Below the pieces are notes generated by a model, which saw only the letters and a program-made list of their open reading frames with translations, was not told where the DNA came from and did not search any database. 40,226 nucleotides of DNA from Dehalococcoidia bacterium (GTDB lineage: Bacteria; Chloroflexota; Dehalococcoidia; Tepidiformales; Tepidiformaceae): contig JAJEIT010000090.1 of the NCBI GenBank assembly GCA_022827945.1, forward strand, positions 1-40,226, in the 5' to 3' direction. A program made the position numbers and the translations under genes. Below, in pieces: positions 7,544-9,845 of the stretch (its first letter is position 1; every line of letters begins with the position of its first letter).

Positions 7544-8806
7544 TCAGGGGTAGCGGTACTCGCGCAGGGGGCGCCAGAGCCTCCAGATGAGGAGCGTGGC
7601 GCCGAACGCGAGGAAGGCGCCGAGCATCATGGTGGCGCGCTCGCCAATCCAGGCGGACCAGAGGCCGACCCAGAGCGTGCCGATGTTGTTCGCGGTGACG
7701 GCCGCGAGCACGAGGAAGGCGGAGGCGCGCCCGCGCATGTCGTCGGGGGTGGTGAGCTGCACGGTCGTCTGGCGGACGGCCACGGTGACGGCGTCGGCGA
7801 GGCCGAGGAGGGCGATGGTGATGGCGCCGGCCCAGAGGGCGGTCACGTTCGAGAAGAGGAGGAGGACGACGGCGTAGCCGAGGGAGGCGTAGATGACGAG
7901 CATCCCCTTGGAGCGGTAGCCGGCGAAGAAGAGGGCGCCGAAGGAGCCGGCGACGGCTCCGGCGCTGTTGGCGGAGCCGAGCACCCCCACGGCTCCGGCG
8001 CCGCCCTTGAAGAGGCCCTTGGCGATCACGGGGAGGATCTCGCGGTAGAAGGAGACGACGGTGATGCCGATATCGAGGAGGAAGAGGCCGGGGAGGATGG
8101 GGTGGCGGATGACGAAGAGGAAGCCCTCCCAGACGCGGCGCACGGTCGAGCCCTCGGCGACCTGCTCGACCTGGCCGCGGGCGCGGATGAGGAGGGGCAG
8201 AAGGGCGGCAGGGGCGGTCGTGCCGGCGGCGACGAAGAAGGCGGCGGTGAGGCCCACGCCCTCGGCGACGCCGGCGAAGAGGAGGGGCGCCAGGATGGAG
8301 CCGGCGTTCATGGTGGCCGTCTCGCCGGTGATGGCGAGCATGAGGTGGCGCCGGGGGACGACGGTGGGGGTGAGGGCGGCGGCGGCCGGCTGCGAGATGA
8401 CCTGGGTCGCGGCGGTGATGCCGATCGCGATGTAGACCTGCCAGACCGTGAGCGTTCCCGCAGCGGCAAGGAGGCCCAGCGCGAGCAGCACGACGAAGGT
8501 GACGGCGTGAGCGGCTGCCACGAGGTGCTTGCGGTTCATGTAGTCGGCGAGGGCGCCGCCCCAGAGGAGGGCGGGTATCTGGACGACGAGCTGGACGGCG
8601 CCGATGAGGCCGAGCTGGGCGGGGGAGCCGGTCGTCTCGAAGAGCCACTGGGCGGTGACGAGGATGCGCATCCAGCGCGAGACGACGGTGGCGAGGCCGG
8701 CGGCCCAGAGGTAGCGGTAGTCGCGGTAGGTGAAGGCGGCCCAGGGCCGCAGGCTCTGCGGCCCCTCGTCCTCGATCTCGACCTGGTCCGTGGGCGGCTG
8801 CGTCAG
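7544..8806 (-). CDS. MFS transporter, probable CTG start
   Basis: Major facilitator with about 12 hydrophobic segments, of the MFS_3/EntS-like exporter type. Conserved family signs include RPWAAFTYRDYRYLW before the first helix and GGALADYMNRKHLV (the loop 2-3 motif). The first ATG in frame (8671) would remove helix 1 and the conserved N-terminus. Upstream of it, no ATG, GTG or TTG occurs before an in-frame TAG at 8810-8812. The best start is CTG at 8804-8806, preceded by GAGGGTG and overlapping the upstream gene's TGA as CTGA, which gives 420 residues. It would export or import a small molecule at the cytoplasmic membrane, perhaps linked to the adjoining hydrolase. Substrate unknown. Confidence 0.85.
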   Translation of the reverse strand: MTQPPTDQVEIEDEGPQSLRPWAAFTYRDYRYLWAAGLATVVSRWMRILVTAQWLFETTGSPAQLGLIGAVQLVVQIPALLWGGALADYMNRKHLVAAAHAVTFVVLLALGLLAAAGTLTVWQVYIAIGITAATQVISQPAAAALTPTVVPRRHLMLAITGETATMNAGSILAPLLFAGVAEGVGLTAAFFVAAGTTAPAALLPLLIRARGQVEQVAEGSTVRRVWEGFLFVIRHPILPGLFLLDIGITVVSFYREILPVIAKGLFKGGAGAVGVLGSANSAGAVAGSFGALFFAGYRSKGMLVIYASLGYAVVLLLFSNVTALWAGAITIALLGLADAVTVAVRQTTVQLTTPDDMRGRASAFLVLAAVTANNIGTLWVGLWSAWIGERATMMLGAFLAFGATLLIWRLWRPLREYRYP

Positions 8807-9072
8807 CTGCTAGCACCCTCGGCTTCGGCGCCCTCATCGAGGAGGCGCAGGATGGTGGTGGCGAGGGCGCGCGCGTCGTCGGGGGTGAGCTCGACGGCGA
8901 CGCGGGCGCCGGTGCCCAACTCCTCGTTCACGAAGTCGAGGTTGAGGGCGTGCTCGCGCTGAAGGTGGAAGGGGTGGTCGAAGGAGACGTAGGTCTGGGC
9001 AATGGGGAACCAGCGGTCGCGGGACTTGCCGCTGCCGGCGATCTGGATTTTCTCGGCGATCATGGTGCACAT
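8803..9072 (-). CDS. DUF6295-like small protein
   Basis: 89-residue protein beginning MCTMIAEKIQIAGSGKSRDR, with WFPIAQTYVSFDHPFH and ALNLDFVNEE; by memory this matches the DUF6295 family of small actinobacterial-type proteins of unknown function. The conserved N-terminal Cys, the GSGK stretch and the DHPFH motif suggest a ligand- or metal-binding role, not shown. The start is the ATG at 9072 with GGGAGAG upstream. It lies 12 bp after the hydrolase gene and overlaps the MFS start by 4 bp, so the three genes are probably one transcript. Confidence 0.75.
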   Translation of the reverse strand: MCTMIAEKIQIAGSGKSRDRWFPIAQTYVSFDHPFHLQREHALNLDFVNEELGTGARVAVELTPDDARALATTILRLLDEGAEAEGASS

Positions 9073-9084
9073 GGCGTTCTCTCC

Positions 9085-9845
9085 CTAGCCCAGGGTGCGG
9101 TCGAGGAAGTCCCAGATCTTCTGCCAGCCGTCGACGGCGGCCTCTGCGGCGTAGGCCTGGGGGTAGTTGTAGTAGAAGAAGCCGTGCCCGGCGTTGGGGT
9201 ACATGTGGAACTCGTAGTCCTTCCCCTCGCGCTGGAGGGCGGCCTCGTGCTCGGCGACCTGCTCGGGTGTGGGGCTGAAGTCGTTCTCCCCGAAGAGGCC
9301 GAGGAGGGGCGCGTTCAGGTCGGCGGTGTAGTCGATGGGTCGACGGGCTGCTTCTCGGAGAGCTTGTCGGCGTCCATGACGACGTTCCCGCCCCAGCAGT
9401 CGACGACGGCGTCGACGCCCTCGCTCGAGCGGCAGCCGACGAGGAAGGAATGGCGCCCGCCGGAGCAGGTGCCCATGACGCCGACCTTGCCGGTCACGTA
9501 CGGGAGGGAGCGGAGGTAGGCGATGCAGCCGTCGGCATCGCCGACCACGCGGTCGTCGGGGGCGCCGCCCTCGGCGCGGACCCTGGCGGCGACATCCTCG
9601 GGCTCTCCGCTACCGTCACGGAAATAAAGGTCGGGGCAGATGGTGACGTAGCCGTGGTGGGCGTAGCGGCGGGCGGTCTCCCGGTACCACTCGTCCCAGC
9701 CGGGGATGTGGTGGAGGAGCAGCATCGCGGGGAACGGCCCCTCGCCCAGGGGCCGCGCGAGGTAGGCGTAGATGGAGTCGCCGCCGTCGCCCTGGACGGT
9801 GATGGTCTCGGCAATCATGCCTTCGTAGGCGCGCGTGTCGGTCAT
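9085..9845 (-). pseudogene. Dienelactone hydrolase family, broken by one frameshift
   Basis: Alpha/beta hydrolase of the dienelactone hydrolase type, which hydrolyses dienelactones or related esters in the cytosol. From the ATG at 9845 (GGAGG upstream) the frame reads about 170 residues including the nucleophile elbow GTCSGGRHS (Cys). It then shifts near 9337-9339, where a run of three G (CCC on the coding strand) should be four, and would stop at 9315. In the next frame the protein continues perfectly: PIDYTADLNAPLLGLFGEND (Asp region), then YPNAGHGFFYYN (catalytic His), ending FLDRTLG at 9085. All three catalytic residues survive across the two frames. Either a recent one-base loss or a sequencing/assembly error at a homopolymer. 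The full length would be about 253 residues. Confidence 0.88.

Follow-up and report, generated by a model that had tools for sequence, protein, structure and literature searches.

The question raised by this locus is where translation of an MFS exporter begins when no ATG, GTG or TTG is found where its protein should start. The window, that is, the whole 40,226-nt stretch of DNA analysed here (a single contig from a genome of 2.85 Mb in 99 contigs), carries this gene of the MFS_1/MFS_3 type at 7544..8806 on its minus strand, on which all window features described below also lie. In the direction of translation, the frame runs from an in-frame TAG (8812-8810), its upstream boundary, through CAG to CTG (8806-8804) and 419 more sense codons, and closes with TGA (7546-7544), giving a protein of 420 aa if CTG-started. 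An earlier note on this DNA had pointed to the absence of any ATG, GTG or TTG between the TAG and the ATG at 8669..8671, to the overlap of the CTG with the TGA of the upstream gene, to a GAGGGTG before the CTG, and to the loss of about 45 residues in standard gene calls, and a reading of the frame and its flanks bears out each of these points. Counted from the CTG, this ATG encodes residue 46, and the preceding 45 residues include the stretch DQVEIEDEGPQSLR. The CTG and the upstream stop form a CTGA overlap, and GAGGGTG (8814..8820) is Shine-Dalgarno-like, with a duplex of -6.4 kcal/mol (anti-Shine-Dalgarno sequence assumed) and 10 nt between the end of its GAGG (8820-8817) and the CTG.

The product itself belongs to a familiar group. 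It scores 83.2 bits against Pfam MFS_1 (gathering cut-off 33.4) and 55.4 bits against Pfam MFS_3 (PF05977; gathering cut-off 27), with matches starting at residues 21 (MFS_3) and 33, and its best NCBIfam match is EntS (NF007792). The likeness to MFS_3 and EntS-like exporters consists of profile matches across most of the protein, whereas the difference from EntS lies in a score of 140.1 bits, well under the curated cut-off of 324; no substrate is therefore assigned, and from these profile scores the protein is classed as an EntS-like exporter that misses the EntS equivalog cut-off. A PDB sequence search with the protein returned no match at E 1e-3. The structure model, built with eight sequences, is moderate and only roughly reliable (mean pLDDT 67, pTM 0.70, about 80 over residues 31-60). 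It contains 14 helical elements; MFS exporters have about 12 transmembrane helices. Helix 1 of this moderate model spans residues 27-59, which places residue 46, and hence the first canonical start codon, well inside it.

Eight other genomes of the genus were searched and seven contain an ortholog, with 86-99% identity; the named records among these same-genus orthologs are metagenome-assembled genomes, and the eight orthologs (window included) are closely related to one another. In all eight, no ATG, GTG or TTG lies in frame upstream of a conserved LRPW; L015 has TTG solely at the Leu of LRPW itself. A run of about 22 codons lacking a canonical codon is, by our estimate, unremarkable in random G+C-rich DNA. 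What does exceed chance is that such a run stands in the window and in all seven other orthologs while the sequence varies like that of a protein. The earlier note had also raised a missed frameshift, and a frameshift or read error in the window assembly is very unlikely because the seven other assemblies show the same absence. Since no ATG, GTG or TTG stands where the protein should begin, this gene, common to eight related uncultured Chloroflexota species, probably uses a rare start codon, for example CTG. The conserved lack of a canonical start is real, and near-cognate initiation at the gene junction would explain it most simply.

Codon-by-codon comparison of the eight orthologs indicates how far upstream of the ATG translation extends. 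Across codons 19-45, variable columns at the first, second and third positions number 6, 5 and 17 (third positions 17/28), and across codons 11-18 they number 1, 2 and 7 (third positions 7/10). Because variable columns fall mostly at third positions, codons 11-45 look translated, which argues strongly against a start at the ATG at 8671 and also against one at Leu19. The proposal of the earlier note, which places the true N-terminus before this ATG in a region lacking a canonical start, is well supported. Codons 2-10 have no clear third-position bias (1, 3 and 5 variable columns, codons 2-6 being counted without L012 and L014) and diverge little: L009, L010, L011 and L013 differ from the window at 1, 0, 0 and 1 of 27 nt, respectively, against 20-22% at 4-fold sites, and L015 differs at 7 of 27 nt where 67% of its 4-fold sites differ, a number of changes this low having a binomial P of 1.8e-5. 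This low divergence suggests that constraint begins close to the CTG rather than at the AUC of codon 11. Whole-codon length changes prevent a column-by-column comparison for L012 and L014, which show 10 and 7 differences, respectively, from the window over the same stretch; their length differences between the CTG and a conserved GAC are likewise whole codons.

On balance we consider CTG (or CTG/ACG) the probable start, a judgement made from comparative sequence analysis. CTG occupies the junction in six of the eight orthologs (L001, L009, L010, L012, L013 and L014), and there is no single universal codon at this place, because L011 has GTA (GTAACG) even though its protein is 98% identical to that of the window, and L015 has TTAGCCGAAACG, in which TTA GCC GAA is followed by ACG. 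L011 and L015 are single tips on the MFS gene tree (unrooted), from which we infer that the genus probably had CTG ancestrally and lost it twice. The in-frame near-cognate ACG adjoining the CTG (8801..8803) is an alternative start and is kept in both exceptions, L011 and L015; it is replaced by ACA in L012 and by ACC in L013. As the two codons adjoin in the window, CTGACG may offer both starts. CTG has been retained beside three different upstream ORFs, namely a DUF6295 gene, a 138-codon ORF in L012, and another ORF in L009 and L010. In the latter two, the upstream ORF stops 44-46 nt short of the CTG, in two different frames, yet CTG and a Shine-Dalgarno-like GGGGAG remain; this arrangement favours CTG as an independent start and disfavours a frameshift fusion. 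Shine-Dalgarno-like pairing upstream of the junction ranges from -5.7 to -7.8 kcal/mol in 8/8 orthologs (the value for L015 was computed before GAA, not TTA). In the sister genome G006, the median is -6.0 at 172 presumed starts and -3.2 at 784 random sites, 28% of which reach -5.7 kcal/mol. The claim of the earlier note that the gene starts at CTG therefore stands as likely, since CTG is present in six of eight, but not as to the exact codon, given that L011 and L015 lack CTG and that codons 11 and 19 offer rivals in 8/8.

The strongest of these rivals is the near-cognate AUC at codon 11 (ATC, 8774..8776; ATC in seven orthologs and ATA in L015), with residues 1-10 forming a conserved leader. 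We regard this as an unlikely yet serious candidate. It is the one codon at which AUN is found in 8/8 orthologs upstream of LRPW, and the L045/L054 genome (54% identity), which has no canonical start upstream, offers GAG ATC GAC with GAGG 7 nt before. The candidate starts of two same-family outgroups, 12 (L036, ATG) and 14 (L037, GTG) codons before W, also lie nearer to AUC, 11 codons before W, than to CTG, at 21. However, the 27 nt before AUC show roughly the conservation of coding sequence, length changes before it come as whole codons, and Shine-Dalgarno-like pairing is weaker there (-3.7 to -4.9 kcal/mol).

A start at codon 19 (CTG, 8750..8752), giving a product LRPWAAF... with an intact helix 1, is disfavoured and, in our judgement, improbable. 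This codon is CTG in seven orthologs and TTG in L015, thus CTG/TTG in 8/8, and is preceded by Shine-Dalgarno-like pairing of -5.0 to -7.0 kcal/mol; against it stand the third-position variation of codons 11-18, which indicates upstream translation, and a spacing from GAGG of about 11 nt, by reading. A further possibility, that the MFS frame lacks its own start and is reached from the upstream ORF by a -1 frameshift yielding a fused product, is very doubtful. In the six orthologs in which the upstream ORF runs up to the junction, the two frames stand in a -1 relation with a 4-nt stop overlap, which would fit such a fusion, but the upstream ORFs differ among species, those of L009 and L010 end before the junction in two frames, as described above, and no slippery heptamer was found at the stop by eye. 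Least credible of all is a start at the ATG at 8671, or a decaying gene with an untranslated upstream part: this ATG is the first canonical start codon and its place is conserved in the eight orthologs, but it would cut helix 1 of the moderate model at residue 46, most of the preceding 45 residues vary like protein in eight species, the Pfam matches begin before it, and the MFS frame is intact in 8/8 orthologs.

The ORF next upstream of the probable CTG start differs among species of the genus. In the window it is a DUF6295 gene (8803..9072; 89 aa; Pfam E 5.8e-32), whose TGA overlaps the CTG. The upstream stop overlaps CTG in L001, L012, L013 and L014, GTA in L011 and TTA in L015, and L009 and L010 have a 44-46 nt spacer between the end of the upstream ORF and the CTG instead of an overlap. 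The upstream ORF is DUF6295-like in five orthologs (L001, L011 and L013-L015), and two other ORFs take its place in L009, L010 and L012. It is possible that gene replacement occurred right at the MFS junction with much of the junction sequence retained. Further upstream, a dienelactone hydrolase-family gene (9085..9845) is split by a frameshift near 9315-9340, which reflects a gene broken in the window genome or an error in the local sequence. In L040, L042, L043 and L044 the corresponding gene is a single uninterrupted frame.

A general relaxation of start selection in these bacteria was considered and rejected after 400 kb of G006, with 394 predicted genes, had been scanned by a simple codon-usage method. 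Seven candidates had a coding signal of at least 8 bits before the first canonical start. Three exceeded 25 bits, namely the MFS gene and two TGA-interrupted selenoprotein-like frames, and the other four (8.6-14.8 bits) look like wrong-frame or short cases. No general relaxation is therefore seen, as the MFS gene is the only strong case in G006 besides the two selenoprotein-like frames. Within the window, solely the MFS gene and the second fragment of the interrupted hydrolase gene have at least 45 coding codons before a canonical start. For each of the eight CTGA stop overlaps listed in the G006 sample, an ATG lies no more than 12 codons away, and the MFS gene is not among them because the upstream ORF ends 46 nt earlier in that genome. 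IF3 is present in the window's genome, with an IF3_C match above cut-off; by eye, its infC gene (L106, 1201-1890) seems to have a TTG start behind GGGGAG and to encode an acidic C-terminal tail after IF3_C. The in-frame TGA codons of the two selenoprotein-like frames lie in G006:C4 at 8854-8856 of L137 (plus strand) and 15582-15584 of L135 (minus strand). Their contexts are GCGG-TGA-ASK, which we take to be that of SelD, and FV-TGA-PWCY, presumably that of a DsbA/FrnE-like protein, suggesting that the genus may use selenocysteine.

A search of the class returned a match at E 1e-80 in 78 of 393 genomes, and 70 loci were read; the eight matches left out are those of G081, G272, G293, G314, G275, G176, G384 and G114. 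L045 and L054 look like one genome (same identity value, same N-terminal sequence) and the count includes L054 alone. A canonical codon was counted if it lay more than three codons upstream of W, a criterion of presence, so that its use as a start is a candidate one. By this criterion, 59 of the 70 orthologs (the eight of the same genus included) have a canonical codon upstream, the nearest being GTG in 33, ATG in 20 and TTG in six, and 11 have none: the eight of the window's genus together with L046, L054 and L066. L066 has an ATG directly before W. L054 (54% identity) and L066, each a single genome, contain solely AUC-type candidates upstream. L046, from another genus, has CTG AGC GAC GAC behind GGGGGGAG (-9.4 kcal/mol), and its congener L049 has GTG AGC GAC GAC. 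This apparent swap of CTG for GTG, with one genome on each side, is suggestive only and comes down to a match of four codons, because the distances to W differ (25 codons for the CTG of L046, 15 for the GTG of L049) and L049 has further canonical codons upstream. Another possible CTG start was noted in L053, where GGAGG lies 4 nt before CTG ACT; an in-frame GTG is also present upstream, and this locus was therefore left out of the CTG-start count. GTGA motifs in relatives of family f2 were considered as a homologous overlap and dropped: in L062 the GTG falls within the last part of the gene before it, and the sequences suggest that this may also hold for several other f2 relatives.

Taken as a working model, the MFS protein would be an ordinary exporter whose gene uses a near-cognate start codon throughout a genus of uncultured Dehalococcoidia. 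In the window genome, the ribosome would start most likely at the CUG (8806-8804), or possibly at the adjoining ACG, with the CUG read by the initiator tRNA as fMet. The GAGG Shine-Dalgarno-like stretch within the upstream gene would assist initiation, termination-reinitiation at the CTGA overlap would probably assist as well, and the outcome would be a low level of expression that depends on the upstream gene being translated. What we infer in this model is which codon is used, that the two genes are coupled and that low output is the purpose. More tentatively, selection might keep the exporter on a deliberately poor start as a translational brake, which may also have arisen again in other Dehalococcoidia. 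CTG is one base change away from ATG, GTG or TTG, and none of the eight species has a canonical codon there. If there is such a brake, the near-cognate codon could conceivably have drifted (CUG, ACG, perhaps AUC) without turning canonical. Independent origins, though doubtful, might then be sought in the CTG of L046 and perhaps in the AUC of L045/L054 and of L066.

Common gene callers consider ATG, GTG and TTG only, and such genes would consequently be annotated without their true N-terminus wherever they occur, which here amounts to about half of helix 1. The MFS gene is thus a clear annotation trap, in which the first 45 amino acids would be missed by gene finders, and a non-canonical start kept across a genus provides a natural test of selection for weak starts as expression brakes. 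CUG starts in bacteria are already known, and the novelty of the present case, the genus-wide retention of a non-canonical start, is modest. Among the papers listed by literature searches, no title or abstract opening dealt with an MFS gene that starts at CTG throughout a genus, which is a weak negative.

Excerpts of published work offer several points of comparison. In Salmonella Typhimurium, 4 of 26 newly identified N-terminal proteoforms were assigned a CUG start (PMC11005335), ATC and ATT start sites have been reported by N-terminomics in E. coli (PMC13245402), and a structural study of complexes initiating on CUG with a variant initiator tRNA found the first-position bases too far apart to pair strongly (PMC11497404). 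The MFS gene resembles these bacterial non-canonical starts (CUG, AUU, AUC) in having a near-cognate codon as its putative start. In those excerpts, however, the published CUG, ATC and ATT starts give alternative proteoforms in one species, whereas the MFS start is predicted to be the main one and to be genus-wide. Reinitiation at stop/start overlaps (ATGA/TGATG) is likewise established (PMC6728339), and the MFS junction shares with such systems a 4-nt overlap and a Shine-Dalgarno-like motif inside the upstream gene. It differs from them in that a near-cognate codon, CTG or another, would serve as the overlapping start, and in that a 44-46 nt spacer takes the place of the overlap in L009 and L010.
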